IMG/VR virus record: IMGVR_UViG_3300027733_000100
Coordinates: 1 to 39,891 of that record
DNA: 39,891 nt
Direction: 5' to 3' (one strand)
Source of the DNA: a virus
Position 1 is the stretch's first letter. Each line of letters begins with the position of its first letter. Below the pieces are notes generated by a model. It ran no database searches. It saw only the letters and a program-made list of their open reading frames with translations, and was not told the origin of the DNA. This document shows positions 2,749-25,143 of the stretch, piece after piece. The position numbers and the translations under genes were made by a program.

Positions 2749-5700
2749 ATGAAAAAGTTTTTAACAATTCTTTTATTTATTCCATTATTTGCTAGCGCTA
2801 GAAAATTTTACGTTAGTTCAGCGGGTAGTGATAGTTACACAACAACACAAGCGCAAAATCCATTAACGCCTTGGCAAACATTATCTAAAGTACAAAGCAA
2901 TGTTGCTAATGGTGATTCTGTATTGTTTGCAAAAGATTCTAAATTCTCGGGAACATTAACATTATCAAATAAATCTAACATTTATTTTGGTGTGTATGGA
3001 ACAGGAGCCGACCCATTATTCTGGGGGACAAACTCTACAGTAAGTGTTTTAATTACATTGAATGGTTGTACAAACCTAACTTTCTATGGTTGGAAGATTA
3101 GCGATACAACAATATCAGCTACTGATAGATATATTCAAGCTAAGATACAAAATGTATTTGCTACGTATCAAGGATGTACAGGAATAGTTATTAGGAAGTG
3201 TACGATGGACAGAACTGGTTATGGCGTGTATTTTCCACCAGGCAATAATAATAACACCGTGGATTCTTGTGATATTGGAAATTTAAGGATGATTAGAAAC
3301 ACACCAACATCTGTTAATCCAGATGACGATTATGGTGGGGTGCCTGTTCAACTATCTAGTTCAAATAATATTGTTACTAACAACTACTTTCACGATTGTT
3401 ATGCCGCTAGTTATGATTATACATTTGATGGTGGTGGTGTAGAATTTTTTGAAGAGGGTTCTGTTATTGAAAATAACGTGATTGCTTACAATACATTTTA
3501 TGACTGTAATGGTATTTTTGAATTTGGTAGCAATAATGATGGTGTTGCTAATAATTTAATTCAAAATAATAAAATATATTACAACAAGATTATTAATAAC
3601 AACACAGTAGTTTATATTAGTAATAGTGGACAGTATAAAACTGCGGTAAGAAACTTACAATTTTATAATAATGTAATGTTACAAACCGTTCCTAATACAA
3701 ATCCAGGGGGTAGTAGCGGTATTATGTTTTCTATGTCAACATCAGAGGCTACAGCTGGGATTATAATCCTTAAAAATAATATAATTCAGGTATCTAATGG
3801 TTTATCATTAACAAGAAATGGACAGTTAAATGGTGCTAACTTAAGTCACACTAACAACATATATAAATTATCTAATGGTAGTGTTACTAATTTCACATTA
3901 GACGGTACTGAGATTTCCACATCTGGAATTATTTGGACAAATACAACAAACTCTAACCCTTTAAATTGGGATTATACATTAACAAGTACATCACCAGCCA
4001 TAAATTCTGGAGTTAATGTAGGTCTTACAAGCGATTTTGTTGGTAATAGTGTTGGTGCTATACCTTCGATGGGTATATACCAATACGGTGGTTCGGTTAC
4101 TCCAACACCATGTACTTTTACATATGGTAGTTGGACAACATGTTCTAACGGAACACAAACAAGACCATATACACCTACACCGACAGGTTGTATTGGGGTT
4201 CCACCAACTGATAGTATTCAAAGAAGTTGTACAACACCGATAGTACCGTGCACTTTCACATACGGAACTTGGACAACATGTAGTAATGGAATACAAACAA
4301 GACCGTTTACGAGTTCCCCAACTAATTGTACGGGAGTTCCTCCAGCAGACAGTTTAACAAGAACATGTGCATCCCCAACAACAAGAGGTAGAAAATTTTA
4401 TTTTAGTTCAATTGGTAATGATTCGTATAGTGTTACACAAGCACAGAATCCATTGACCCCTTGGAAAACACTAGCAAAATTAAATACTTTAAGTAGTATT
4501 GCAACTGCTGGTGATACATTTGCTTTTAAAAGAGGTGAAATATTTGCTAATGGTACCGAGTTCAGCACAGTAGCTTCTGTAAAATGGTATGGTGGTGGAT
4601 ATGAAGGATTAAGCTTCCCTTCAGGTACTGCTACTAATCCAATTGTATTCACATATTATGGTGATATTAATTTAGAAAGCCCAAACTTACTATATCCTTA
4701 TCCAAGTTCAGTTAGGTCAAACGAAAAAGGTGTATTGGCGTTTGCTAATGTAAGTTACATTGTGATAGACGGTATACAGTTTAATGATACAAGATTCCCT
4801 GTCAATGACAAACGTTCGGGTGCTTTTACAACGCTAGGACTTTGGTTTGGGGATAGTGGATACTGTAGTGGAAGTGATGGTTGTAAATGTAGTAACATCA
4901 CGGTAAAAAACTGTAACTTTAGTAATACAGCATATGGTATTGTTGCCTTTGTTAGAGATTTTAAGATTGAAAATAATACATTTAGTAATTTTAAATCTAC
5001 AGGTTGGATAACAGATACTGCAAGTCAAGCTGATATAGGTGCTGACCCAATGTTATTATCGGGAAGTAAATATAGAATAACAAATAATAGAATTACAGGT
5101 TCGTGGGCTTATGCCAATCCTTTTAATTCATCTAGTTCAGGTTTATTAGGTGGAGCTGTTGAAACTATTAATAATTTTGATAGTTCATTCATTGCCTATA
5201 ATACATTCATTGATTGTAGCGGTGGTATGGAGTTTGGCACAAATTTACCAGGCGGTATACAAGGCCCAGATGACGATACAATTTGCTATAATAAATTTAT
5301 CAATTGTAGCAACATTGCGTATGTTAATACTACAGGAACATATGCAACACAGGTTAAAAATTTACATTTTTGGAATAACTTTTTTGTAGAAGGTTCTATG
5401 TCACGTTTTAGTGGTAACAATGCTGGTGGTGATGCTATGGGTGATGGTCAAACATATGCAAACACAGGATTCATTTATTGGCCACCATACCCTATTAATA
5501 AATCAACTCGTTATCCATCATCAGAAAACTTCCAAAACGCTTGGAGGCCGATAGCGTCAGGTGACCATAGTGTTCAAGCAGCAGATACTGTATTTGATAT
5601 TCGTAATAATGTATTTTGGATTAATAATGGGTTTTATGCTAAATACACACAATCTGAAAGACCTAAAGCGTTTTATAGAAATAATATCTATCACTTAGTT

Positions 5701-6588
5701 AGTGGTTATCAGGGAGCGGTTGGTTCATTTACACCTACGTCTTTAGGGCCTAATACCACATTAGCGATAGGCGAAAGAATTATCAATGGTAAATTAATTG
5801 TTGATAGTTCTAGCATATACCCACAAAATTGGGATATGCACATTGCTAGTGATACGTCTTATGCCATAAATAATGGTACAAATGTAGGTCTTAATAGAGA
5901 TTTTGAAGGAAATATTGTTGGTGCAACACCTTCAATAGGAATATATCAGTATAATTCAGTTGCTCCAACACCTTGTATTTTTACATACGGAACTTGGACA
6001 ACGTGTAATAATGGGGTTCAAACAAGACCATATGTAACATCTCCAACTGGATGTGTGGGATTTCCGCCAACTGATAGTATTCAAAGAAGTTGTACATCAC
6101 CAATAGTACCTTGTAATTTTACATATGGAATTTGGACAACATGTGCTAATGGAACTCAAACAAGAACATATACATCCACACCAGTAGGTTGTACAGGGGT
6201 TCCTCCTGCGGATAGTGTTCAAAGAGCATGTGTTTCTCCAACACCATGTGTATTTACTTATAGTCAATGGAGTACATGTATTAATGGTTTACAATCTAGA
6301 ACATATACTAGTGAACCTATAGGTTGCATTGGTCTTCCGTCAACGGATAGTTTAAGTAGGTCTTGTTCTTCAGTTAATATTAGAAGGTTTTTTTATAATT
6401 CAGATAGAAGGTCAATATATATAAATTCTAACACGTCTGGAACTATGGTGATTAAAAATATATTAGGGGTTACAGTTAAAACTTCTAGTTATTCGTCTGG
6501 TGGTGATTGGGTTAGTGTGAGAAACTTAACTTCAGGTAGTTATGTTGCTATTACATATAATCAATCAATATTATTTGTAAAACAATAG
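2749..6588 (+). CDS. Secreted two-beta-helix protein with TSP1-like repeats and T9SS-like C-terminal domain
   Basis: This protein has 1279 residues. Residues 1-18 form a classical signal peptide (KK, a hydrophobic core, then a possible ASA cleavage site). Residues 19-450 and about 545-1070 are two related right-handed beta-helix (pectate-lyase-like) domains; each opens with K-F-Y-x-S-S and 'TQAQNPLTPW', so one arose by duplication. Cysteine-containing thrombospondin-1-like repeats (FTYGxWTTC ... QTRPY ... GVPP ... C) follow: two after the first helix and three after the second. The last 70 residues resemble a type A T9SS sorting domain (MVIKNILGVTVKT, LTSGSYVAI, ending FVKQ), although the usual YPNP motif is missing. 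Known T9SS cargo is exported through the outer membrane and usually anchored or released there. I infer a host-surface or secreted enzyme or adhesin. No catalytic residues could be assigned. The leader is A-rich. Confidence 0.75.
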   Translation: MKKFLTILLFIPLFASARKFYVSSAGSDSYTTTQAQNPLTPWQTLSKVQSNVANGDSVLFAKDSKFSGTLTLSNKSNIYFGVYGTGADPLFWGTNSTVSVLITLNGCTNLTFYGWKISDTTISATDRYIQAKIQNVFATYQGCTGIVIRKCTMDRTGYGVYFPPGNNNNTVDSCDIGNLRMIRNTPTSVNPDDDYGGVPVQLSSSNNIVTNNYFHDCYAASYDYTFDGGGVEFFEEGSVIENNVIAYNTFYDCNGIFEFGSNNDGVANNLIQNNKIYYNKIINNNTVVYISNSGQYKTAVRNLQFYNNVMLQTVPNTNPGGSSGIMFSMSTSEATAGIIILKNNIIQVSNGLSLTRNGQLNGANLSHTNNIYKLSNGSVTNFTLDGTEISTSGIIWTNTTNSNPLNWDYTLTSTSPAINSGVNVGLTSDFVGNSVGAIPSMGIYQYGGSVTPTPCTFTYGSWTTCSNGTQTRPYTPTPTGCIGVPPTDSIQRSCTTPIVPCTFTYGTWTTCSNGIQTRPFTSSPTNCTGVPPADSLTRTCASPTTRGRKFYFSSIGNDSYSVTQAQNPLTPWKTLAKLNTLSSIATAGDTFAFKRGEIFANGTEFSTVASVKWYGGGYEGLSFPSGTATNPIVFTYYGDINLESPNLLYPYPSSVRSNEKGVLAFANVSYIVIDGIQFNDTRFPVNDKRSGAFTTLGLWFGDSGYCSGSDGCKCSNITVKNCNFSNTAYGIVAFVRDFKIENNTFSNFKSTGWITDTASQADIGADPMLLSGSKYRITNNRITGSWAYANPFNSSSSGLLGGAVETINNFDSSFIAYNTFIDCSGGMEFGTNLPGGIQGPDDDTICYNKFINCSNIAYVNTTGTYATQVKNLHFWNNFFVEGSMSRFSGNNAGGDAMGDGQTYANTGFIYWPPYPINKSTRYPSSENFQNAWRPIASGDHSVQAADTVFDIRNNVFWINNGFYAKYTQSERPKAFYRNNIYHLVSGYQGAVGSFTPTSLGPNTTLAIGERIINGKLIVDSSSIYPQNWDMHIASDTSYAINNGTNVGLNRDFEGNIVGATPSIGIYQYNSVAPTPCIFTYGTWTTCNNGVQTRPYVTSPTGCVGFPPTDSIQRSCTSPIVPCNFTYGIWTTCANGTQTRTYTSTPVGCTGVPPADSVQRACVSPTPCVFTYSQWSTCINGLQSRTYTSEPIGCIGLPSTDSLSRSCSSVNIRRFFYNSDRRSIYINSNTSGTMVIKNILGVTVKTSSYSSGGDWVSVRNLTSGSYVAITYNQSILFVKQ

Positions 6589-6607
6589 TGTTTTAGTTTA
6601 TTATAAG

Positions 6608-6669
6608 AATACCCAAATATTTTATTTGTCAAAACAATTTTGGTGAATATTTATATTTGGGTATTTTTT
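6608..6669 (+). terminator. Long-stem terminator hairpin
   Basis: AATACCCAAATAT (6608-6620) pairs perfectly over 13 bases with ATATTTGGGTATT (6653-6665). The loop of about 32 bases can itself fold through CAAAA/TTTTG. The 3' arm runs into six T's (6664-6669). It lies 20 bases after the stop of the secreted protein and fits an intrinsic terminator. The 3' arm also contains TATATTTG (6652-6659), a match to the Bacteroidota -7 consensus, so a promoter role is possible. Confidence 0.7.
6646..6654 (+). promoter_or_regulatory. AATATTTAT box upstream of collagen-like fibre gene
   Basis: Exact copy of the nine-base box found upstream of several transcription-unit starts here. It lies 41 bases before the ATG at 6696, further than most copies, and overlaps the terminator loop and 3' arm. 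A promoter role is inferred only from recurrence and position. Confidence 0.35.
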
Positions 6670-6695
6670 ATTAATATAGTATCTAATCAACAAAT

Positions 6696-7981: not shown

Positions 7982-10900
7982 ATGGCAACTATAGATGGCG
8001 GAGTACGCATAACTGGATTTATATCACCAACAGATACCCAAGATACTTATGCGGTTATTGACCCAGTTTATGGTGTTGATAGTTTAAGAAATGTTAATGA
8101 TATTACTGCTAGGAATGAAATACCTTCTGAAAGAAGAAGAGCGGGAATGATTGTTGGTGTTAAAAATGGCGCATTTAATGATTATTACGTATTAAATAGT
8201 GGTAACACAACATGGAGTCAAATACAAATGGTTACAGGATTAACTTGGGACCTTGGGAGTTATGATTTGACATTAAACACATTTGGTGGTGGGATAACAA
8301 AAAATCTTAGCTCGTTGGCTTCAGACGTGACCGTTACAGGTGGTACTTATAATTCTTTAAACGGTATTGTTACGTTTTCATCAAGCACAACAAATACCCG
8401 TACTGGTTTATTTTATGCTGGTAACTGGAACGCATCTTCTGCATACACAGCTAGTACTGTTGTTACATATACTGTTAATAATTTAGATTACTACTCAATC
8501 GCAAATGTTAGTGCAAACCCAACACCACCTAGTGGGGATACAGCTAATTGGAGGCCAATTAGTTCTCGTGGTGTATTTATTGTTACTGGATTTACTGCAG
8601 GTTATACAAACATATATACAACAGCTGCAACATATAATCAAACAGGTGCTTCAATTGCGCTAGATTTTACTGACCCAAGTAAAAATTTAAGTATTACAGG
8701 TATAACAACACTGTATGGTAAAGATGATTCAATAAAATCAGATAGGCGTGTTGACTTAAACCAAAAAACATTAAATTTTAGTTCATCAACAGCGCCAAAC
8801 AGTTTAACAATTAGTACTGGTGGTACAGTTGGTATTGGTGTTTTATCGGCTAGTACAAAATTACATATTTCGGCAGCTACTGACCCAATTAGAATTGAGG
8901 GTATAGGAGGTTCTTCTGATTCAAATGTTTTAACAATTGACAATGTTGGTGTGGTACATTCAATTTCTGTTGCTTCACTTACTTCAACAGTCGCTTCAAG
9001 CATTAATACCTTATATACTAGTGACGGTGCTTTAAACGGTAATAGGGTTGTTGATTTAAATCAAAAAACATTAAACTTTAGTTCTTCGACAATACCAAAT
9101 GCTTTAACGGTTAGTACTGGTGGAACTGTTGGTATTGGTGTTTTATCGGGAACCAATACACTACATGTAACCGCAACAACAAACCCAGTTAGATTTCAAG
9201 GATTAGCGGGTATATCAGCTGATACGTATCTTACGAGTGTTGATACAAATGGTGTATTACGTGCATTTTCTGCTACAACTGGTAGGATACCATTTTTTAG
9301 TTCTAATCAAATTACAACTAACGCTGATTTTACATATTCACAAGGTGCTTCGGGTACGGGTACTTTATTTTTACCTTCTTCATTCCCAGCGATAAATTTT
9401 GGTACTTCTAGGGCTGTTATTTACTCTCCAGCTGCCCCATTAGGACTATATTTTGAAACGTCATATAATGCAGGTGGTGGTGGTCTTAGTAATCAATATC
9501 CAGACCCTTCCAAAATGTTTGTATTTAGAAATAAACCATATAACAACGATTTGGTAATGTCGCATCTTGATAGACCAAATTCTAAGTTTTTAAATAGTAA
9601 CGGTGTTCTTACATTTTCCGCACCAGTTGCCGCTTTTGGTGGGCAGGTGGTTATAAATGAAACTAGTACTGTTGGACCGCCAAACCCAATAAGGAGTTTT
9701 TGGGGTACAGCTGGTTCCGCTCTTAATATTAAAAGCGCTGTATATACTGAGGCAAATAGTACTGCTACACCAGCAACACGTAGTGAGATAGTGGCTAATA
9801 GTTTTAATATTCCAACATTTAGTGCTAATACAACATTAATTACAAGCACCCAAAATTATACAACATTATCAAGTTATTTGATGTATTATTCAGCTGCTAC
9901 TACTGGTGGTACTGTTCTATCAATAACAATAAACGATTCTTTACTTAGTAATTTTTATAATGCTAGTTTGTTTGCATTACCTAGTTTGAGCACATCAAGT
10001 GCTGGAACCGCATCGTCATTAGGGGAAATATTAAGCGCAACTAGTACAGGATATAGGGGCGTTTCGTATTCGCAAATTGTTGCTCAAACAGGTTTAACCG
10101 ACCCTGGGTTTTTTACAGGTATAACAACAGGTTCTACAACATATTATACTGGTGTTACATCTGGTGTTACGTATAGTGCTTTAAGTAACGTATACATTGC
10201 TGGTGCACCAATAAAGGGGTCTAATGTATCAGGTGATACATATGCGTTAAAGGTTCAAACAGGTACAACATATTTTGGTGGTGATGTAACATTGTCTAGT
10301 ATTTCTAGTGCTGCTACTGCTACTCAGGTATTAACAAGAGAATCTAACGGAAATGTTTCATTTAAAAACATTAATGATATAGGTGGTGGTAATCTTACTG
10401 CAGATACTTTTGTAACAGGGTTTACGTTATCATCAAATACAATAACCTTAACTCAAAATAGAACAGACGGATATTCAGCATTTACAATAAGCCTATCTGC
10501 GTATACAGGTTCGTCGTCTGCTTCAGGTGCTTATCTTCCATTAAGTGGTGGAACAGTAAGTGGTGGTACGGTATTTACTAGTGGTTTAACTGCAAATACA
10601 TTAACATTATCTGGTATTTCTAGTGGTACTACAGCTCCTCAGTTATTAACAAGAGAATCTAACGGAAGTGTTTCGTTTAAGAGCATTACTGATATAACTG
10701 GTGGTAATGTTCTTGGTAATATTGGTGCAACACTTTATTGGTACGATGAAAATAATACACCACCTGCTGTTATTCCAGTAGCTACAGGTACTGGTTCTAT
10801 AGCTTTTGGTAATGGAGCTAAAGCTTTAGCTAGCAGTATGTTTGTATTTGGTTTAAGCGCTGGTACATCAGCCACTAACGCTAGTGGTTCAACATTTATT

Positions 10901-12730
10901 GGTGATAGAAGTGGTTTTGGTGCAACTTTTGCCGATAATTCTTTATTTATCGGTGACCAAGCTGGTTATCAATCCAGTAACGCTAATAATTCAACATTTA
11001 TTGGTGTTGGTGCTGGTTCTAATGCTAGTAGCGCTAGTAATTCAACATTTATTGGTACACAAAGTGGATTAGGTGGTACTAGCGCAAATAACTCAATAAT
11101 GATTGGTAGTCAGGCGGGTTATGGTGCAACATCTGCTAATAATTCTCAATTTTTTGGCGTTAGCGCTGGTAAAGGTGCTACTGGTGCAACTTATTCATTC
11201 TTTGCTGGTTCTGGTGCTGGTTGGAGTGCTAGCTCTGTTACTAGTTCGGCTTTTATAGGTAAAAATGCTGGTAGTGGTGCAACTAACGCTAGCTACTCAC
11301 TATTTATTGGTGAGGACGCTGGTAAAAATGCAACAAGTGCTAGTGGTTCAACATTTATTGGTCGAAGTGCTGGTGATAATTCCACCAATTTAACGGGTAA
11401 ATCAGAATATAGTATTGCTATTGGGTATGAGGCTCTTAAATCATCCTCAAATAACGATAAGGGTGTATATATAGGATACCAAGCAGGTCAAAGCTCGGTA
11501 AATTCAACATCATCTGTAATCATAGGTAATGGAACAGCTAGGGGTATTACGGGTAGTACAAGCCTAAATGGGGTGTATATTGGTACTAGTGCTGGTGAAT
11601 TAGCTCATACTTCTAGTGGTTCTGTTTTTATTGGTACTAATGCTGGTGTCGGAGCAAATGGTTCTAGTACCGCAGTTATGATTGGAAGTAATGCTGGTAA
11701 TGCTGGTGATATCGCCCCAAATGCAGTTATGATTGGTGCTGATGCTGGTAAGAATTCAACAGGTGCTGACAGGGGTATTTTTATTGGTAGTAATTCTGGT
11801 GAAGGTGTAACAGGTACAACTAATGGTATTTTTATTGGAAATTTAGCTGGGTCTGGTGTTGGTACTAGTGATAACATGATAGCAATTGGTGTTAATGCGG
11901 GGTTGAATGTAAAAACAGCCGCATCCACAATAATTATTGGCCCTAGTGCTGGTAGCGGAACAACATCTAACTCAAGTATCATAATAGGTAGTAAAGCTGC
12001 TTCTAGTGGTGGATTTGGTAACAATAATATTATTATTGGTACTAATATAACATTAAGTTCGGGTACAGTAAATTCGTTTAATATAGGTGGTGTTTTATTT
12101 GGGACTGGATGTAATTCAAACGATGTTTCAAGTTCAATATTTACCGCAATTACTGGTAGTGCTGTAAGTATTGGCATTAATAAACCAAATTCTAGTGCGA
12201 TATTAGATTTAACATCAACATCTAAAGGTTTTTTACCACCAAGAGTAGGTAGTGGAGATTTGCCAAGTAGTCCAGCAAAAGGACTTATTGTTCATTCAGA
12301 TGCCTCTGGAAGTACTCCTACAAGGAGATATGCTGGTCTCCAGTTGTATGATGGTACTATGTGGAGAACAATAAACCCTTATAAAAGATATGTTGCGGCG
12401 GTTGATATAGATTCTGGAAATAATATGACTGCTGGTTATCCTATTGTTTTAGAAAATGAACTTAACACAACAATTGGTGTAGTTTACGATAGGAGTGTAA
12501 AAGTAATAACAATTAGCGCATCTACTGGTACACCATTTACTACTGATAAAACGGCAATTTTTGCTACATGTGGTGTATCTAAGGGTGGGGGTGATATAAC
12601 AGTAGCTACTTATGGTTTTATGTTTACCAATTTTGTAGATTCAAGTAAAATACAAGTAGCTAAGGCAACCTCAGATAGGGTATTTGGCGATACCTATTAT
12701 ACTGTGATAGAAATAAGAGTTTATGATTAA
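7982..12730 (+). CDS. Giant modular tail fibre with FIG/AG repeats
   Basis: This 1582-residue protein is complete. Residues 1-75 (VRITGFISPTDTQDTYAVID, then ERRRAGMIVGV and YYVLN) look like a conserved attachment domain. Residues about 140-200 (GNWNASSAYTASTVVTY ... YYS ... P ... W) resemble a chitin-binding type 3/CBM5-12-like fold. Two 'VDLNQKTLNFSS ... VGIGV' modules follow. At about 630-680 lies a 'SITINDSLLSNFYN' segment that matches repeats in the sheath protein. A 'DTFVTGFTLSSN' module comes next, then about 24 FIG/AG repeats (10840-12110), which end in a 'NIGGVLFG' unit as in the fibre at the left edge. The C-terminus starts with 'STSKGFLPPR' and ends in a non-repetitive domain of about 150 residues, probably the tip. 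I infer a long receptor-binding fibre. The start follows an A-rich leader. Confidence 0.82.
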   Translation: MATIDGGVRITGFISPTDTQDTYAVIDPVYGVDSLRNVNDITARNEIPSERRRAGMIVGVKNGAFNDYYVLNSGNTTWSQIQMVTGLTWDLGSYDLTLNTFGGGITKNLSSLASDVTVTGGTYNSLNGIVTFSSSTTNTRTGLFYAGNWNASSAYTASTVVTYTVNNLDYYSIANVSANPTPPSGDTANWRPISSRGVFIVTGFTAGYTNIYTTAATYNQTGASIALDFTDPSKNLSITGITTLYGKDDSIKSDRRVDLNQKTLNFSSSTAPNSLTISTGGTVGIGVLSASTKLHISAATDPIRIEGIGGSSDSNVLTIDNVGVVHSISVASLTSTVASSINTLYTSDGALNGNRVVDLNQKTLNFSSSTIPNALTVSTGGTVGIGVLSGTNTLHVTATTNPVRFQGLAGISADTYLTSVDTNGVLRAFSATTGRIPFFSSNQITTNADFTYSQGASGTGTLFLPSSFPAINFGTSRAVIYSPAAPLGLYFETSYNAGGGGLSNQYPDPSKMFVFRNKPYNNDLVMSHLDRPNSKFLNSNGVLTFSAPVAAFGGQVVINETSTVGPPNPIRSFWGTAGSALNIKSAVYTEANSTATPATRSEIVANSFNIPTFSANTTLITSTQNYTTLSSYLMYYSAATTGGTVLSITINDSLLSNFYNASLFALPSLSTSSAGTASSLGEILSATSTGYRGVSYSQIVAQTGLTDPGFFTGITTGSTTYYTGVTSGVTYSALSNVYIAGAPIKGSNVSGDTYALKVQTGTTYFGGDVTLSSISSAATATQVLTRESNGNVSFKNINDIGGGNLTADTFVTGFTLSSNTITLTQNRTDGYSAFTISLSAYTGSSSASGAYLPLSGGTVSGGTVFTSGLTANTLTLSGISSGTTAPQLLTRESNGSVSFKSITDITGGNVLGNIGATLYWYDENNTPPAVIPVATGTGSIAFGNGAKALASSMFVFGLSAGTSATNASGSTFIGDRSGFGATFADNSLFIGDQAGYQSSNANNSTFIGVGAGSNASSASNSTFIGTQSGLGGTSANNSIMIGSQAGYGATSANNSQFFGVSAGKGATGATYSFFAGSGAGWSASSVTSSAFIGKNAGSGATNASYSLFIGEDAGKNATSASGSTFIGRSAGDNSTNLTGKSEYSIAIGYEALKSSSNNDKGVYIGYQAGQSSVNSTSSVIIGNGTARGITGSTSLNGVYIGTSAGELAHTSSGSVFIGTNAGVGANGSSTAVMIGSNAGNAGDIAPNAVMIGADAGKNSTGADRGIFIGSNSGEGVTGTTNGIFIGNLAGSGVGTSDNMIAIGVNAGLNVKTAASTIIIGPSAGSGTTSNSSIIIGSKAASSGGFGNNNIIIGTNITLSSGTVNSFNIGGVLFGTGCNSNDVSSSIFTAITGSAVSIGINKPNSSAILDLTSTSKGFLPPRVGSGDLPSSPAKGLIVHSDASGSTPTRRYAGLQLYDGTMWRTINPYKRYVAAVDIDSGNNMTAGYPIVLENELNTTIGVVYDRSVKVITISASTGTPFTTDKTAIFATCGVSKGGGDITVATYGFMFTNFVDSSKIQVAKATSDRVFGDTYYTVIEIRVYD
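10840..12110 (+). repeat. FIG/AG repeat array inside fibre gene
   Basis: About 24 imperfect in-frame repeats of the type F-I-G-x-x-A-G separated by 8-14 residues rich in Ser, Thr, Asn and Ala (for example FIGDQAG, FIGVGAG, MIGSNAG). The DNA is degenerate (variants of attggtnnnnnngctggt), so the repetition is old at protein level. The same unit fills most of bases 1-1700. Confidence 0.85.
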
Positions 12731-13119: not shown

Positions 13120-14094
13120 ATGAAATTATTTTATATTGGTTTAACAGCCTCATCATATAAAACATCTGCATCTACGGAAGGACAATTAAAATTTGTTTTT
13201 AATTCAACAGGTAATTCGTTAAACTTTTTTGTTCAGGGCTCCTCTAATTTCACAATGACAGTAAATTGGGGTGATGGCTCTCAAAATACATATTTAAGTT
13301 CTGATAACTATACACCATCACACACATATTCAATTAACGGTAACTATACCGCATCAACAGCTATTAACAACCCAATATTAATTAACAATTTGGACATATC
13401 TTCAGGGTATGGTAATAATAGATTAAGGGATATAATAGGTTTAGAGAATTTAAGTGGTTTAACGTATTTAAATTTAAGTGGTAACTTAATCAATAACTTT
13501 GATAGTAGAATTTCAACATTACCTAGTTCGGTTCAAACGTTGGATTTATCGTATAATAGTGTAACAGCATTTACACCGACTAGTTTACCACAAGGGCTGA
13601 CTGATTTATATTTAAATAATAATTTATTGACAGGGTTCACCCCAACAGTTCCTTTTCCTTTGGGTATTTCAAATCTTTATTTGAATAATAATTTAATCAC
13701 AAATTATGACCCATCATTACCAATACCAAGTATTCAAACATTAAATTTAAGCTATAATTCAATAACTAATTTTACACCGTATCAACCATTACCTAGCAGA
13801 TTGCAGGTGTTAGATTTAAGTTATAATTCAATATCAACATTTAATCCATGGTCGTTAGGTAATCCATTCCCTAATTTTATTTCGTATATATATTTGAACG
13901 ATAATTCGTTGCCTAATAGTGGTATAACTAACACATTAATTAAATTGAGTGCAACTACGTATTGGCAAAATCCAAATACAATAACATTATTTAATCAAAC
14001 TGGTAATGGTTGTTTATCTGCCAATACATTAGGATATAGCGCATATACAAGTCTGGTTTCAAGTGGATGGACTATAGATGTAACTAATTGTTAA
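13120..14094 (+). CDS. PKD-like plus leucine-rich-repeat protein
   Basis: This protein has 324 residues. Residues about 25-85 contain a PKD-type signature (VNWGDGSQ ... SHTYSINGNYT). Residues about 105-260 hold seven leucine-rich repeats of 22-26 residues with cores such as LTYLNLSGNLINNF, VQTLDLSYNSVTAF, LTDLYLNNNLLTGF and LQVLDLSYNSISTF. The 40-residue C-terminal cap ends in VTNC. Leucine-rich repeats generally bind proteins; PKD domains are common in Bacteroidota surface proteins. The N-terminus (MKLFYIGLTASS) is only weakly hydrophobic, so I do not call a signal peptide. I infer a virion-associated or exported binding protein. Both domains are typical of host cell-surface proteins and suggest acquisition from a bacterium. 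Confidence 0.75.
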   Translation: MKLFYIGLTASSYKTSASTEGQLKFVFNSTGNSLNFFVQGSSNFTMTVNWGDGSQNTYLSSDNYTPSHTYSINGNYTASTAINNPILINNLDISSGYGNNRLRDIIGLENLSGLTYLNLSGNLINNFDSRISTLPSSVQTLDLSYNSVTAFTPTSLPQGLTDLYLNNNLLTGFTPTVPFPLGISNLYLNNNLITNYDPSLPIPSIQTLNLSYNSITNFTPYQPLPSRLQVLDLSYNSISTFNPWSLGNPFPNFISYIYLNDNSLPNSGITNTLIKLSATTYWQNPNTITLFNQTGNGCLSANTLGYSAYTSLVSSGWTIDVTNC

Positions 14095-14119: not shown

Positions 14120-16756
14120 ATGAAAAAAGTATTACTAGTATTAACGTTAAGTTTATTAACGATTTTTGGTTTTAGTCAAACAGCGCCAACGGTTACAACT
14201 AATGCGATAAGTCGTATTGAGGCACTTAGAGCAGAAAGTGGTGGTAATGTAACAAGTGATGGGGGTTCTCCAGTAACAAAAAGAGGTGTTGTTTGGAGTA
14301 CTTCTCCAAATCCAAAATTAAGCCCTTATGTTAAATACTATAGACTAGGTTATCCTTCTACAGGTACTGGTCCTTATGTTAATCATTTTGTTGCCGTTAT
14401 ACCACCGAATTATCCAGATGGTGGTGGTGGAATTATGCCATTATTACCATCAACAACTTATTATATCAGAGCGTTTGCTATAAATGCTGTTGATACTTCG
14501 TATGGTAATGAACTTACATTTACAACACTTGCTGCTGGCCCAAATAAAAAATACTATTTTAGTACTTCAGGTAACGATGATAATGATGGTTTATCACCAA
14601 GTACACCTAAAAAAACGTTGATTGCTCTTCAAAATATGACATCAAGTCCAAATGTTACTTTCTTGCCTGGTGATTCAATACTGTTTAAAAGAGGTGACAT
14701 GTTTGCAAACGGATATGATGGTACCCTTGGTTATTTTAATTTTGTGAGTTTTTCATATATTGATAGGCCGTATGACGATTTTACCGCACCTAGTGGAACA
14801 CCTGAAAAACCGATTGTGTTTTCAAGTTATGGTGACAAGTCTTTGCCATTACCTAATTTTGTTTTTCCAACGGCTGAATCCCCATATAAAGATGGTCCCA
14901 CTCACTGGGTTGCACAATTTGGTGGTGTTAGCAATATAATAATAGATGGGTTACAATTTAATGATACCCGTTTTCCTGTTGCCGATAAACAAAATCCTGC
15001 GTATAGTTACGGTGGAATGTTAATGGGTGAATACCAAGACACTAAAGTTAATGGTACCGATACAATTTGGGGCACTAACAGAGATTATGGTGATAGAAAA
15101 GGTAGTGTATTTAATTTTACAGTTCAAAACTGTTATTTTAGTAATATGTCATTCGGTATTGGTTCAGTAAGTGCTTTTAATAGTAAGATTACTAAAAATG
15201 TATTCACCAACTTTAAAAGTACGGTTGATACGTTTGGGATTAATGATGTATTAGCTGGCGCAATAGAAGCTTTAAATGGTAAAAATCTGGAAATTAGTTA
15301 TAATTATTTTAAAGGTGCTTGGGCCAAATCAGGTAGAAATTCATCAACACAAGGAATGGGTGGTATAACTTTAGACGTGTTTAATTTACAAAATTCAAAA
15401 ATAGTATATAATAAAGTAATCGACTGTAGTAGTTTTATTGAAGCAGGAAGCATAGACAATGATGATATTACTTCAGGTATGAATAACGATACAATTGCAT
15501 TTAACTTAATAATAAATTCGTTGGATGTTATTAGTTTACATTTACCTTGTGGTGATGTTTTTGCCGCAGCGCAATATAATATAAGAATTTGGAATAATAT
15601 AGTTGTAGAAAACGACAAAAGTAGATTTTCAGGTAATGGATTTGGTGGTGATGTGTATGGTGATGGCCAAGATTTTAAATGGTGGTTTTGGGGTGCGAAT
15701 TTTTTAACAACTGGAAATATTGACCCGACAGGTACCTTTACATCAGGTTCAAACCAAATAACATCCTTATCAAGAATGGATGGTATTCAAGTGGGGTCAA
15801 CAGTGTACGGACCTGAAAAAGCGGTCCCACCATATTTTGCTGGTGGGGATAGAGATTATGCAACAGTAACATCTTTAGGTGTAAATTCAATAACACTAGA
15901 CAAAGCGCCGCAAAGAACAGGAGTTGATGTAGAATTTTTGGCTTTCCCGCCATTATCTACCAAGGGTATTAGGTGGAGTCAACCAAACAATCCATCGTCA
16001 AGTGGTTACTATGGTGGTTTTGATAACAATGCAGATAATGATAGATTGTTTGCGTTCTTTTCAGGTCCAGCATGTTATGGTAATGATTACGATACACTTA
16101 TCGACATGAGAAATAATATTATTTGGGGTACGACTGGACTACAATTAATTTATCCTGATAGTAGAGTCACAAATTCTAATGGAACAAGAATAAAAAGAAA
16201 AAACAATATCTATTATGTGAATGGTGGGTTTTCACATACATTCCCTACAGGACAAGGAACAAGTTTTAATAATGTTTCTAGACTCGGAGATGGCGCAAGT
16301 TTAAATTCAGGAGAAGTGCTTTATACTGGTTCACAACAAATATTTAAAAATACAACGTCACCAAATCCTGAAAATTGGGATTTTACTTTGGTGCCTGGGA
16401 GTTATGGTATTGGTAATGGTTCATTGATTAGTGGAATTAATAAAGATTTTGCTGGTGCACCTTTAACTAGTACGATGGATATTGGATTATACAAATATTC
16501 AGCAACACCAAATGTTGTATTGGTATCATCAACAAACACAACATGTAAAACTAGAAATGATGGGACAATAACTTTAAGTGGTTCTGGTGGAACAGCGCCT
16601 TATACGTATAAAGTTGGTACTTCAGCATTTACAACAACAACAAGCTATACAGGGTTAAAAGCTGGAACGTATGTATGTACTATTAAAGATTCAAAAGGAT
16701 TGGTTTCATCAATTAATGTTACAATTAAGGGTAGCAGCGTTGTTGTTTGCCCATAA
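14120..16756 (+). CDS. Secreted FnIII-like/beta-helix/SprB-repeat protein
   Basis: This protein has 878 residues. Residues 1-20 form a signal peptide of the Flavobacteriia style, ending GFSQ before TAPTV. Residues about 21-137 are a fibronectin-III-like domain (SGGNVTSDGGSPVTKRGVVW ... TTYYIRAFAINAVDTSYGN). Residues about 140-790 form a right-handed beta-helix, with an inserted beta module at about 530-610 ('GTFTSGSNQIT'). The helix is paralogous to the second helix of the protein at 2749: both have 'DG[LI]QFNDTRFPV.DK' and 'SRFSGN..GGD..GDGQ'. Residues about 795-872 are a SprB-type repeat (C-x3-NDGTITLSGSGGTAPYTYK ... GLKAGTYVCTIKDSKG). SprB is the gliding adhesin of Flavobacterium. No T9SS-like C-terminal domain follows; the protein ends VVVCP. 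I infer export to the periplasm or surface. Confidence 0.75.
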   Translation: MKKVLLVLTLSLLTIFGFSQTAPTVTTNAISRIEALRAESGGNVTSDGGSPVTKRGVVWSTSPNPKLSPYVKYYRLGYPSTGTGPYVNHFVAVIPPNYPDGGGGIMPLLPSTTYYIRAFAINAVDTSYGNELTFTTLAAGPNKKYYFSTSGNDDNDGLSPSTPKKTLIALQNMTSSPNVTFLPGDSILFKRGDMFANGYDGTLGYFNFVSFSYIDRPYDDFTAPSGTPEKPIVFSSYGDKSLPLPNFVFPTAESPYKDGPTHWVAQFGGVSNIIIDGLQFNDTRFPVADKQNPAYSYGGMLMGEYQDTKVNGTDTIWGTNRDYGDRKGSVFNFTVQNCYFSNMSFGIGSVSAFNSKITKNVFTNFKSTVDTFGINDVLAGAIEALNGKNLEISYNYFKGAWAKSGRNSSTQGMGGITLDVFNLQNSKIVYNKVIDCSSFIEAGSIDNDDITSGMNNDTIAFNLIINSLDVISLHLPCGDVFAAAQYNIRIWNNIVVENDKSRFSGNGFGGDVYGDGQDFKWWFWGANFLTTGNIDPTGTFTSGSNQITSLSRMDGIQVGSTVYGPEKAVPPYFAGGDRDYATVTSLGVNSITLDKAPQRTGVDVEFLAFPPLSTKGIRWSQPNNPSSSGYYGGFDNNADNDRLFAFFSGPACYGNDYDTLIDMRNNIIWGTTGLQLIYPDSRVTNSNGTRIKRKNNIYYVNGGFSHTFPTGQGTSFNNVSRLGDGASLNSGEVLYTGSQQIFKNTTSPNPENWDFTLVPGSYGIGNGSLISGINKDFAGAPLTSTMDIGLYKYSATPNVVLVSSTNTTCKTRNDGTITLSGSGGTAPYTYKVGTSAFTTTTSYTGLKAGTYVCTIKDSKGLVSSINVTIKGSSVVVCP

Positions 16757-16785: not shown

Positions 16786-18027
16786 ATGATAGATTTAATA
16801 AAAAAAATGCTTGATGAAGCATTGATACTTAAGGCTGATAAAGATAAAAATATGCTGGTTGTTCAATCAAATGAGGTTGACGCAAAAAAAGCATCACAAG
16901 AAACATTTAGAAATAAAGAAACACTTAAAGCTTCTGGTTTTAAATGGGGCCCAAGTGCTAATTATCCCGCACCAGTTTGGGTGACAGATATGGATAATTT
17001 TGAAAACGCTAAAAAAGTTTTGTCTGATATTAATAAGTCAGGTGAATTTATTGATAAACTTGAAAACTTAGAAGAATTTGTTTCTAATTCAGAAGATTTT
17101 AAAGGTAAGGGAAATCTTATGGATAAAATCAACATGTATGTTCAAGATTTAGCAAATGCCACCGATGAAAAAGCAATGACCGCTGAGATTAAAAGATATC
17201 TTACATTTTTTGCTGGGTTTAGAGGTCATAGTTTTTATAACACATTACTTATATGGATTCAAAAACCAGACGCAAAAAAAGTTGCTGGTTTTAGACAATG
17301 GGAAAAGAAATTTAGAAGGGTTAAAAAAGGTGCAAAAGGAATTATGATATTTGCACCTGTTATGTCAAAAACAGCAAAAGATGATACCCAAGTTAATGAT
17401 ACACAATTAGATAACGAAGTTAAAAAGGGTATGCCAGTTAGGTTTATGCCTGTATACGTATTTGATATTTCTGATACAGAGGCAATTGACGAAAGAGGTG
17501 ATGTTCCTGAAACACCAAAATGGTTTCAAGATAGTGAACCAACCGAAAGAACAAAAGAATTATATAAATACTTATCAGAAATTCTTGATGTTATGGGGGT
17601 TAAATTAACTAAGGGTGATGCAAAAGCTGGTGAGAAAGGTTATTCCGCTGGTAATCATATTAATATGTCATCTGAAGTTGAGGGTGCTGGTGAAGTGTCA
17701 ACACTTATACATGAATTAGCACACGAATTAATGCATTGGAAAAAATCATCAATATACTATCAAGGTGATGAGGTTAAATATGATAGTGCAATTAAAGAAT
17801 TACAAGCAGAAAGTGTTGCATATATTGTAATGAAACATTATGGATTGCCAGTTACTCATCAAACAACATACCTAGCGTTATGGAAAGCTAATAAAGAAAA
17901 AATTTTAGCAAACATAAAAGTTATTTCTGATGTTGCTAAATTTATCATCGATGAAATTGATAAAGTTGCCGCACAAAATTCATCCGAAAAAAATGATGTT
18001 GACGAGGGATTTGATTTGTATCTTTAA
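16786..18027 (+). CDS. ArdC-like ssDNA-binding and zinc-metallopeptidase protein
   Basis: This protein has 413 residues. Residues 1-95 form a small N-terminal domain with 'LKASGFKWGP...APVW'. Residues about 125-195 match the ArdC N-terminal ssDNA-binding domain (GHSFYNTLLIWIQKPDAKKV, AGFRQWEKKFRRVKKGAKGI, MIFAP). Residues about 215-395 are a zincin domain: HELAH at 309-313 supplies two zinc ligands and the catalytic Glu, and Glu342 in LQAES is the likely third ligand. In plasmids, ArdC protects incoming DNA from restriction; phage and plasmid relatives are often found near replication genes. Here it directly precedes DNA polymerase. I infer a role in DNA protection or early host takeover. The gene is followed 19 bases later by a strong terminator. 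Confidence 0.8.
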   Translation: MIDLIKKMLDEALILKADKDKNMLVVQSNEVDAKKASQETFRNKETLKASGFKWGPSANYPAPVWVTDMDNFENAKKVLSDINKSGEFIDKLENLEEFVSNSEDFKGKGNLMDKINMYVQDLANATDEKAMTAEIKRYLTFFAGFRGHSFYNTLLIWIQKPDAKKVAGFRQWEKKFRRVKKGAKGIMIFAPVMSKTAKDDTQVNDTQLDNEVKKGMPVRFMPVYVFDISDTEAIDERGDVPETPKWFQDSEPTERTKELYKYLSEILDVMGVKLTKGDAKAGEKGYSAGNHINMSSEVEGAGEVSTLIHELAHELMHWKKSSIYYQGDEVKYDSAIKELQAESVAYIVMKHYGLPVTHQTTYLALWKANKEKILANIKVISDVAKFIIDEIDKVAAQNSSEKNDVDEGFDLYL

Positions 18028-23312: not shown

Positions 23313-25143
23313 CGATTAATTTATTTGTCATTATTTCAATTATTTCTTCTTCAGATAATTGATTATCACCTATGATTGTAGATATGATATCTTTTTTTGT
23401 TCTAAGTGTTTCCCACATTCTAGTTGATATTGTATCTTCAAATAATTGATAGTAAACATTTACGTTATTATTTTGTCCAATTCTATATGCTCTGTCTTCG
23501 GCTTGTTCGTTGCTGCCTGGCACCCAATCAAATGAATTAAAGACAACAAAATTAGCTTTTGTTAATGTGATACCAACACCAGCCGATTTTATATTACCAA
23601 TAAATACTTTAATTTTATCATTGTTTTGAAAATCATCAACCGAACGTTGTTTTTGTTTATCATTCATGGGCCCATTATGTGTTACGCATAATTTACCAAA
23701 ATGTTCAGCCAGTTCATTTAGTTCGTCGGTAAAACTAGTAAATATAATAACTTTTTTACCTGTTTCTAATATGTTTTCAACCATCTCGATAGTTTGTGGG
23801 ATGGCTTCAATAGCAATAAACTTTCTTAAAAGAATTAGTTCAACCAAATCTCTTTGTATTGAACCTTTTTTCTTTTCAGCTTTTCTTTTATCTAAATAAT
23901 CTTCCCAAAGTCTATCGTACTCGTCCCAACCTTTATCGGATAATTGATGGTACATAGGTGTAATAACTTTATCTGGCATATCTAACACATTCTCTTTCAA
24001 TCTTCTAAGTATTAAATTTTTTGTTTTTGCTGCTAATTCGTCTAGGTTTGATGCTCCGTCTGTTAACCATATTTGTTTTCTTTGTCCGTTTTTTAATGTT
24101 CTAAAGAATTTTCTTGCATCGCAATATCTGGTTGCAAAATATTGCCAATTATCCGCTATTGGTGATTTAATTATCTTTAATAAGTTAAAGAAGTCCATTG
24201 GTCTATTGGCCACAGGTGTTCCTGTTAATAACCAAACTCTTTCAATATTATGGTTAACAACCAAGTCGACCATTATTTCACCACGAATGCTTTTATTGTT
24301 TTTTAAGTAATGTGCTTCATCTACAATAACAAGGTCAAACTTTGCATTTACTATGTGTCTATTATATTCTAATACTGGGTCGGTATCTTTTTTCTTTTTA
24401 CCGTCACCTAGTGTATGAAAGTTTTTAAGGATGTCATAATTAATGATAGTAAATTTTGCGTTTTGCCATTTTCTACCCTCAACGATAGCGACGTCGTCAC
24501 AAAATACATTTATTTCTCGTTTCCAATTTATTTTAACAGCTGAGGGGCAAACAACAAGTATGTTTTTAGCACCGCTTTCTAGCGCTGCAATGATTGATTG
24601 TATTGACTTGCCCAATCCCATATCGTCAGCTAGGATACTACCGTTTCTAGATAATAAAAATTTTATACCTTCTTCTTGATGTTTGTATAATTGTTTTCCT
24701 GTTTTCTTTAAAACGTCATTATATTTATCAAAATTTACATCTATATCTATTTTTTCATAATATGGGTCGTCTAAAACTTGTGTTTTTGGTAACCAATACA
24801 TTTTTGATTCTGTTTGGTTTCTTTTTAGCTTACCATATATGTGAAATGTTTTTTCGTTTTCTGCTAAAATATATTCAATCAATACTCTTTCAGGTAAAAA
24901 AGATAGTTCTTCTTTTTTTTGTAGTTCTTCACCTAAGAAAGGTGTGATATTTACAACTTTATTTATCGGTATAGGTTCCTTTTGATGGTTGTCAATAATG
25001 TATTTTATTTGCGTTTCCGTTAATGTAATTTTTTTATTTTTTAAATATTCCTTTTTCATTTTGCGAATATACGGATTTATACCAGAATATTCTTCCAATA
25101 AGTTAAGTGCTGAATGACCCTTGATATCGTCTAAATTAATCAA
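23296..25143 (-). CDS. SNF2-family DNA helicase/translocase
   Basis: This 615-residue protein is a superfamily 2 ATPase. Motif I is DMGLGKS (174-180), motif II DEAH (275-278), motif III LTGTP (306-310), motif V GVGITLT (522-528) and motif VI QAEDRAYRIGQ (547-557). The SNF2 subtype is clear from DMGLGKS, the 'LTGTPVANRPMDFFNLL' segment and the 'DRAYRIGQ' ending. The two-lobe core resembles SMARCAL1/ZRANB3-type annealing helicases, which remodel forks, and may fill the niche that UvsW has in T4. The start codon is TTG, since no ATG precedes residue 29. The N-terminal 30 residues and an AATATTTAT box 17 bases upstream support the TTG. It opens the leftward three-gene operon. Confidence 0.9.
   Translation of the reverse strand: MINLDDIKGHSALNLLEEYSGINPYIRKMKKEYLKNKKITLTETQIKYIIDNHQKEPIPINKVVNITPFLGEELQKKEELSFLPERVLIEYILAENEKTFHIYGKLKRNQTESKMYWLPKTQVLDDPYYEKIDIDVNFDKYNDVLKKTGKQLYKHQEEGIKFLLSRNGSILADDMGLGKSIQSIIAALESGAKNILVVCPSAVKINWKREINVFCDDVAIVEGRKWQNAKFTIINYDILKNFHTLGDGKKKKDTDPVLEYNRHIVNAKFDLVIVDEAHYLKNNKSIRGEIMVDLVVNHNIERVWLLTGTPVANRPMDFFNLLKIIKSPIADNWQYFATRYCDARKFFRTLKNGQRKQIWLTDGASNLDELAAKTKNLILRRLKENVLDMPDKVITPMYHQLSDKGWDEYDRLWEDYLDKRKAEKKKGSIQRDLVELILLRKFIAIEAIPQTIEMVENILETGKKVIIFTSFTDELNELAEHFGKLCVTHNGPMNDKQKQRSVDDFQNNDKIKVFIGNIKSAGVGITLTKANFVVFNSFDWVPGSNEQAEDRAYRIGQNNNVNVYYQLFEDTISTRMWETLRTKKDIISTIIGDNQLSEEEIIEIMTNKLIDEDNG

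Follow-up and report, generated by a model that had tools for sequence, protein, structure and literature searches.

A phage-encoded beta-helix protein with a predicted signal peptide and a divergent relative of the T9SS type A sorting domain, probably secreted by the host

Does a phage send one of its own proteins through the type IX secretion system (T9SS) of its host? The question is raised by the gene at positions 2749-6588 of the stretch analysed here (hereafter the window), which covers positions 1 to 39,891 of IMG/VR virus record IMGVR_UViG_3300027733_000100 (39,891 bases). The content of the window fits a large tailed phage: besides a DNA polymerase and a helicase, it has a match to a head-tail adaptor and several matches to tail-fibre or minor-tail proteins. 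A sequence-only reading of this DNA had proposed that the gene product, here called P0001, carries a Sec signal peptide, two beta-helix domains, five TSP1-like repeats and a C-terminal domain (CTD) resembling the T9SS type A sorting signal, and that the phage hijacks the T9SS. Our best explanation, which we hold with moderate confidence, is that P0001 is a glycan-acting or glycan-binding protein exported via Sec and then probably via the host T9SS. Its parts are as follows:

2749-6588, + strand: coding sequence of P0001, a putatively exported modular beta-helix protein of 1279 amino acids (open reading frame calling)
2749-2799, + strand: Sec-type signal peptide, residues 1-17, likely cleavage before R18 (rule-based)
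2797-4089, + strand: beta-helix domain A (alignment; AlphaFold2 model; Foldseek)
4111-4368, + strand: repeats 1 and 2, 40 amino acids with four cysteines each (pattern match)
4387-5955, + strand: beta-helix domain B, a paralogue of A (alignment, hhalign)
5974-6366, + strand: repeats 3, 4 and 5 (pattern match)
6358-6585, + strand: C-terminal beta sandwich related to the T9SS type A sorting domain (TIGR04183, hhalign, AlphaFold2, structure comparison)

Signal peptide and C-terminal domain

The first 17 residues of P0001, MKKFLTILLFIPLFASA, form a Sec-type signal according to a simple rule of our own (positive net charge and a hydrophobic core), which was used for all signal-peptide calls and is not SignalP. 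By this rule a signal peptide is present in all 20 family entries examined, i.e., 17 other phage loci, the two window genes and one cellular contig, and in none of the 21 other window open reading frames (ORFs) to which it was applied. The 20 entries exclude near-identical copies of the two window genes as well as the truncated gene of L008, and one pair among them, L069 and L070, is nearly the same sequence; the 21 controls are the ORFs taken as genes, with nested or opposite ORFs and the cut ORF 1-2670 outside the test. The start codon of the ORF is the first one past a stop, and its MKK start is seen again in relatives, which also share an ARKFYVS stretch downstream of the signal. Judged by these features of the sequence, export of P0001 from the cytoplasm is very likely, and the proposed Sec signal peptide is borne out. 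By eye, signal-peptide-like starts were also seen in further phage genes near family members (L056 820-4677 and 8928-9443; L060 2255-4729 and 8997-9491; L004 5066-6025), and these phages seem to export several proteins.

The last 76 residues of P0001, taken alone, match the type A model TIGR04183 at 16.0 bits (E 0.0087; curated cut-off 23 bits). All six distinct phage CTDs match this model, one of them (L006) above the cut-off. When five were scanned singly at E up to 10, all matched TIGR04183, with a best E of 1e-5, and any other family matched at most two; the sixth, from L055, scored 17.6 bits (E 5.3e-5). In whole-record searches L006 reached 24.3 bits, over the cut-off, L002 21.5 and L015 19.8. 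PF18962 matched four of five phage CTDs, all under its cut-off. Other Pfam matches were likewise all under cut-off and were set aside (CBM_35 at 0.0041 and TcfC at 0.02 for the L006 CTD; DUF6383 at 0.01 for the L002 CTD). The type B model TIGR04131 (accession as in PMC12618676) had no match in P0001 at E up to 10, or in P0006 and P0008 at E up to 0.1.

Aligned by hhalign with 39 cellular CTDs, the phage CTD profile gave 95.3% and a score of 41.3, against at most 6.7% and 17.0 in 200 column-shuffled controls. Run at E 0.01 over the Chitinophagaceae draft genome of L043, a cellular homologue described below, the same profile gave one match (E 0.0035), a YPNP-bearing CTD that ends a 2371-amino-acid open frame. 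An origin from the subgroup of CTDs found in the cellular homologues is not claimed; a model of their eight CTDs scored 11.5 bits at best, and hhalign gave 27.3%. A separate weak match to the phage CTD profile (E 0.0052, 13.9 bits) was seen at 24784-24873 of G012, the contig of L021, in a 486-amino-acid frame outside the family gene.

AlphaFold2 places a seven-stranded beta sandwich, and not another fold, at the C-terminus (pLDDT 93.2; predicted strands 8-14, 19-24, 28-34, 39-45, 50-53, 60-66 and 69-75), though the immunoglobulin (Ig)-like fold is a common one. The T9SS-bound CTD structures 8glj, 8gl6, 8glk and 8gl8, which show the CTDs of FspA, RemA, NucA and RemZ on the translocon, align with this model at Z 7.2-7.7 over 65-70 residues and share 9-21% identity with it. 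Taken with the values for other folds given below, the comparison of the model is compatible with T9SS CTDs, not specific to them. According to the accessible part of PMC10994853, type A CTDs form sandwiches of seven strands, in which the conserved motifs determine the fold and not the contacts with the translocon; a possible exception is a lysine close to the end that is nearly invariant and matters for function. For RgpB, the accessible part of PMC11285876 describes the glycine of motif Lb3b4 as functionally essential and places the conserved lysine in strand seven.

The Lb3b4 pattern with its glycine is present in all six phage CTDs, in 8/8 cellular homologues and in 27 of 31 other CTDs. 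These 31 were chosen by the PNP pattern in the last 115 residues, so that their PNP count is by construction, and as top-scoring TIGR04183 matches they are biased towards the consensus; the rows come from L103-L132, with L104 and L120 dropped (no such ORF), two loci giving two rows each and L071 added. The phage CTDs are 37-77% identical among themselves, and the ratio of non-synonymous to synonymous substitution rates (dN/dS, Nei-Gojobori) is 0.13-0.61 in the 14 pairs out of 15 that are unsaturated, most with high dS, and 0.23 in the least diverged pair, L006-L015. We consider it very likely that the phage CTD descends from T9SS type A sorting domains. The resemblance first seen in the sequence is thus upheld, by the TIGR04183 matches, hhalign and the predicted fold, as that of a divergent relative. 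As the phage CTDs lack the PNP motif and the nearly invariant lysine, and the window CTD scores under the curated cut-off, the domain is classed as a divergent relative of the TIGR04183 type A CTD and not as a member.

Passenger domains and their relatives in phages and cells

The two beta-helix domains that had been proposed were both found, and domains A and B are paralogous by hhalign (99.9%, E 3.9e-34). They are accompanied by five four-cysteine repeats of 40 residues (455-494, 501-540, 1076-1115, 1122-1161 and 1167-1206). Five repeats had indeed been described, as TSP1-like; Pfam TSP1 is unmatched in P0001 at E up to 1, so the name expresses a mere resemblance. P0001 as a whole has no Pfam match (E up to 1) and no PHROG match, and reaches 22.3 bits against choice_anch_Q, under the cut-off of 25.

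Domain A with repeats 1-2 was modelled by AlphaFold2 at pLDDT 81.2 and pTM 0.74. In a Foldseek search of the domain A model the GH136 lacto-N-biosidases 6kqs and 5gqc came out on top (E 5.7e-8, TM 0.42/0.37), followed by polysaccharide lyases including RbmB, PL6 and PL9 and then by phage tailspikes such as HK620, and a viral structure library returned right-handed beta-helix proteins of uncultured phages. A 13-sequence profile of domain A matched GH136 6kqs among PDB sequences at E 7.1e-5, with the first 79 positions aligned; the same search also returned three T-cell-receptor chains (0.07-0.14), which were taken for chance. The domain B profile found nothing in the PDB but a designed PPR protein at 0.038. 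The L019 protein matched the lacto-N-biosidase model at 4.1e-12, spanning 85 of its 1498 profile positions; that model was matched by one of six domain B sequences, and window domain B matched a parallel beta-helix repeat model alone, under cut-off. As the predicted helix lies nearest to glycan-acting enzymes, a glycan target is favoured, and from these fold and profile matches the passenger likely binds or cuts glycans. As a GH136-like catalytic pair, D200/D207 of domain A was considered on grounds of spacing and dropped: the pair of ErLnb136 is D568/D575 (PMC7335108, accessible part), and a weak second alignment fell elsewhere.

The tailspikes among these matches bring up the possibility that P0001 is itself a virion tailspike or fibre, its hydrophobic start being incidental and its gene placed among fibre genes as one of them. 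The fibre-like and minor-tail matches in the window agree with this, as does the resemblance of the beta-helix to HK620 and to viral right-handed beta-helix proteins. The signal peptide, however, recurs in every family entry, one of them cellular, and P0001 has 33 cysteines, compared with 0-2 in each of five fibre-like window proteins and 7 in a second exported gene (14120-16756). Furthermore, no fibre-like neighbour was seen by eye in the unannotated fetched flanks of L002, L006, L007, L015, L020 and L021. We therefore regard a virion role as improbable.

Apart from the window, 21 IMG/VR contigs carry the family gene, and in 17 of these it is not near-identical to the window copy. Three contigs, L001, L003 and L005, are identical to P0001 in 1279/1279 residues, and the contigs holding these copies are 60,257, 120,190 and 168,871 bases long. 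By tblastn, INPHARED gave no match for P0001 at E 1e-3 and none for P0004 at E 0.1. The modules occur in several combinations. Domains A and B stand with the CTD in the window and L002, A with the CTD in L006, L015 and L055, and B with the CTD in L007; A and B, or B alone, precede a SprB-like end in L004 and L069 (by eye) and in L019, L067 and the second window gene (Pfam SprB); domain A without the CTD is found in L020, L021 and L056-L060. The window gene and L006 are 87% identical in domain A and 37% in the CTD, while L006 and L015 are 68% and 77% identical, respectively, and CTD identity being out of step with that of domain A points to module recombination. For domain A, dN/dS is 0.10-0.23 in the 9 pairs out of 10 that are unsaturated.

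A scan of genome contigs with domain A found one locus, L043, in a Chitinophagaceae metagenome-assembled genome (MAG), with 61% identity. It is taken to be cellular because housekeeping genes adjoin it (pterin-binding, FKBP, DUF1599 and MauE). Among 195 Chitinophagaceae genomes, 30 matched domain A at E 1e-5. Near full-length matches lie at 12 places in 7 genomes; at eight of these places the C-terminus is complete, and contig ends truncate the other four. L100-L102, which match the start of domain A alone and were missed by local search, were excluded from the 11 fetched regions. All eight complete-ended homologues, which include two near-identical pairs from two genomes, terminate in a TIGR04183 match, seven of them over the cut-off, and 24 of 25 sampled Chitinophagaceae genomes encode TIGR04183 proteins over the cut-off. 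In cells, therefore, the passenger belongs to a lineage that is probably T9SS-secreted.

A cellular homologue on a contig with housekeeping genes, 61% identical in domain A, would also suit a host gene carried by chance (a moron) that has no role for the phage. A chance passenger is hard to reconcile with a family spread over 21 other IMG/VR contigs, most of them not near-identical to the window gene, with the low dN/dS of domain A, and with the repeated recombination of modules, and we consider it very improbable.

Probable route of secretion and genomic context

Several results weigh against passage of P0001 through the T9SS. Of 18 complete phage genes (near-identical copies counted once), 6 have the CTD and 12 lack it, so passage through the T9SS does not apply to the family as a whole. 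The PNP motif, present in 8/8 cellular homologues, is found in none of the six phage CTDs, the absence of YPNP having been correctly noted at the outset, and the nearly invariant last-strand lysine, read as the residue preceding the last Phe, is likewise found in none (Leu in the window, Thr in five). The window CTD is under the cut-offs of both TIGR04183 and PF18962. A TIGR04183 search had been suggested as a check, and its outcome is divided: the last 76 residues match as given above, under the cut-off, and the CTD goes unreported when the whole protein or the whole record is searched. At E up to 1, the whole-record search left the window, its identical copies and L007 unmatched, L007 also being the CTD unmatched by PF18962, and of 14 control genomes 13 matched TIGR04183 at the lax E of 1 and three at E 0.01. 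The hhalign match covers columns 14-65 of 76, with the last strand outside, and of the at least 42 CTDs in the L043 genome the phage CTD profile recovered just one. Six PDB sequences matched the CTD profile, none of them a T9SS protein. In structure comparison DUF3244 reached Z 9.6, and ordinary, unrelated Ig-like domains scored Z 7-8, where the tool itself rates matches as possibly generic; Foldseek of the CTD gave nothing under E 0.001, with DUF3244 top-ranked. No catalytic residues or active site were found in the passenger, with the GH136 alignment and the D200/D207 spacing considered, and the host is not given by the DNA polymerase or helicase matches. The window polymerase matched 22 phage records, with a best identity of 24-25% and Salinibacter phages first, and the helicase matched 1507 records from many hosts.

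These points could be read as the signs of a lost client: P0001 would still be exported by Sec, its CTD would be a decayed or repurposed Ig-like domain, and the protein would act in the periplasm or be freed at lysis. The missing PNP motif and lysine, the weak single-sequence CTD scores and the signal peptide retained in relatives without the CTD all agree with such a loss. However, the fold and the Lb3b4 pattern are conserved with dN/dS below 1, and conserved CTD motifs are described as specifying the fold rather than translocon contact, the lysine being the possible exception (PMC10994853, accessible part). The lysine, moreover, is present in one of the eight cellular homologues of domain A, though seven of the eight pass the TIGR04183 cut-off, and in 25 of the 31 other CTDs of the family; its loss is thus shared with probable cargo. 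A low TIGR04183 score is by itself weak evidence against the signal, because the cellular homologue L096, with a clear YPNP motif, scores 15.6 bits, no better than the window. Loss of the client state is unlikely on this balance, though less so than the virion or chance explanations.

We therefore retain secretion of P0001 by the host T9SS as the somewhat likelier outcome. The hijack proposed from the sequence stands well supported in its export and CTD descent, but only as likely in the passage itself, given the missing motifs and the 12 genes without the CTD. In the proposed mechanism, the preprotein is made during infection and the host Sec machinery would export it to the periplasm, a step that the signal peptide strongly supports. 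The C-terminal beta sandwich, a shortened type A descendant, would then likely direct it, by way of the host's SprA-PorV translocon, to the cell surface or into the medium. There the passenger, one or two right-handed beta-helix domains (by prediction) with cysteine-rich spacer repeats, may bind or cut host surface or matrix glycans. The likeliest benefit would be that surface polysaccharide is cleared or changed ahead of lysis, letting progeny spread instead of sticking to the dying cell, and the next choice would be superinfection exclusion by the same act. The roles named in the sequence-only reading, i.e., polysaccharide depolymerisation, receptor masking and a change in gliding, likewise stand as conjecture.

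Further features of the window are:

6598-6680, + strand: strong hairpin and T run, possible transcription terminator of gene 2749-6588 (folding against shuffles)
14120-16756, + strand: second exported relative by rule, with a signal peptide, a B-type beta-helix and a C-terminal SprB repeat (PF13573 4.1e-8) (Pfam, alignment, rule)

The hairpin folds at -23.5 kcal/mol (z -5.38), and none of 200 shuffles was equally stable. With its T run after the ORF it suggests that the gene may end its own transcript; it is absent from the list of a simple terminator scan of the window. A promoter scan returned 35 sites against 24.2 expected and was not used. The second signal-peptide beta-helix gene had been missed in the sequence-only reading, and no CTD match or T9SS signal was found in it. 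Among the fibre genes, 13120-14094 encodes a leucine-rich-repeat protein (LRR_4 8.2e-18), and in L019 a similar protein (330-1226, by eye) immediately precedes the family gene. The ORFs at 1-2670 and 7982-12730 encode fibre-like proteins that contain many repeats of the FIG-x-x-AG type and match no Pfam family over cut-off, and near the fibre genes 16786-18027 encodes an ArdC-like antirestriction protein (PF08401 9.6e-10; phrog_7245 7.9e-17). The ORF at 37325-39889 had no match in PHROGs or Pfam; its start resembles a contractile tail sheath.

Comparison with other proposed phage T9SS cargo

Three canonical CTDs were searched against INPHARED by tblastn; two hit Flavobacterium phage vB_FspM_immuto and the third had no match. 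The gene concerned lies as follows:

L133 5521-6252; MW353176.1 12691-13422: cohesin-T9SS gene of immuto_3-5A, product QQO91933.1

QQO91933.1 has 243 amino acids, with a signal-like start, a cohesin domain (PF00963 6.4e-9) and a full type A CTD (45.4 bits), and is annotated as a cohesin domain-containing protein, T9SS being unmentioned. Relatives at 28-99% identity occur in 27 IMG/VR loci (L140-L166; several near copies), of which 26 are complete at their ends; by eye, the CTD starts of all 26 are of the PVP or PNP type and their last strands contain lysines, and the CTD passes the TIGR04183 cut-off in 10/10 tested records. Going by these sequences, this is a second family of putative phage-encoded T9SS cargo, with a canonical CTD, in cultured Flavobacterium phages and 27 IMG/VR loci. 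As immuto is cultured (host Flavobacterium sp. LMO8) and carries a canonical cargo gene, the proposal of phage T9SS cargo is open to laboratory testing. Two TIGR04183 matches over the cut-off were also seen in LR745206.1, an uncultured phage record of 634,780 bases (298450-298647 at 42.1 bits and 397551-397733 at 24.5 bits).

We offer tentatively, at a little under even confidence, the further proposal that a pared-down T9SS signal without PNP and lysine still works and places swappable glycan-acting beta-helix proteins on or around infected cells. If so, together with the immuto-like cohesin-T9SS family, rewriting of the host secretome via the T9SS would be a widespread phage strategy, and large tailed Bacteroidota phages would control host secretion through the host's outer-membrane secretion machine. 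Such a variant of the signal would further reveal which elements of the T9SS tag are not essential.

The nearest comparisons can be set out as follows. The phage CTDs share with the TIGR04183/PF18962 type A domain their C-terminal position, the predicted seven-stranded beta sandwich, the Lb3b4 pattern and profile-profile similarity; they differ in that the window CTD is under cut-off and lacks PNP and the lysine, and in the alignment the phage CTDs are shorter in the early hairpin and at the C-terminal end. Domain A resembles GH136 lacto-N-biosidases (6kqs, 5gqc) in its predicted beta-helix fold and has its best PDB sequence-profile match there, whereas the significant alignment spans the N-terminal 79 positions and does not extend to the catalytic pair D568/D575. 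QQO91933.1 of vB_FspM_immuto_3-5A, from a large Flavobacterium phage, shares the signal-like start and a type A CTD, but its CTD is canonical with C-terminal lysines and its passenger is a cohesin.

Among published cases, the accessible text of PMC7468147 describes Cryophage, a Bacteroidetes phage of 76 kb with three genes bearing T9SS type A sorting domains, for which hijack of the host system, perhaps for superinfection exclusion, was proposed. Its named cargo there is an endoglucanase, a GH39 protein and a PA14 protein; compared with the published description of Cryophage, the window family is set apart by its modular beta-helix and its shorter CTD without PNP and lysine. The crAss-BACON cluster 2 phages, gut Bacteroidetes phages, also encode T9SS sorting-domain proteins, near head genes, but with BACON repeats and not a beta-helix, and the accessible part of PMC6949934 gives no worked-out mechanism. 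No secretion test appears in the accessible parts of either paper. Because both describe phage proteins with T9SS sorting domains, phage-encoded T9SS cargo is of a kind already in print, and the divergent CTD with its beta-helix family is a new variant of it.

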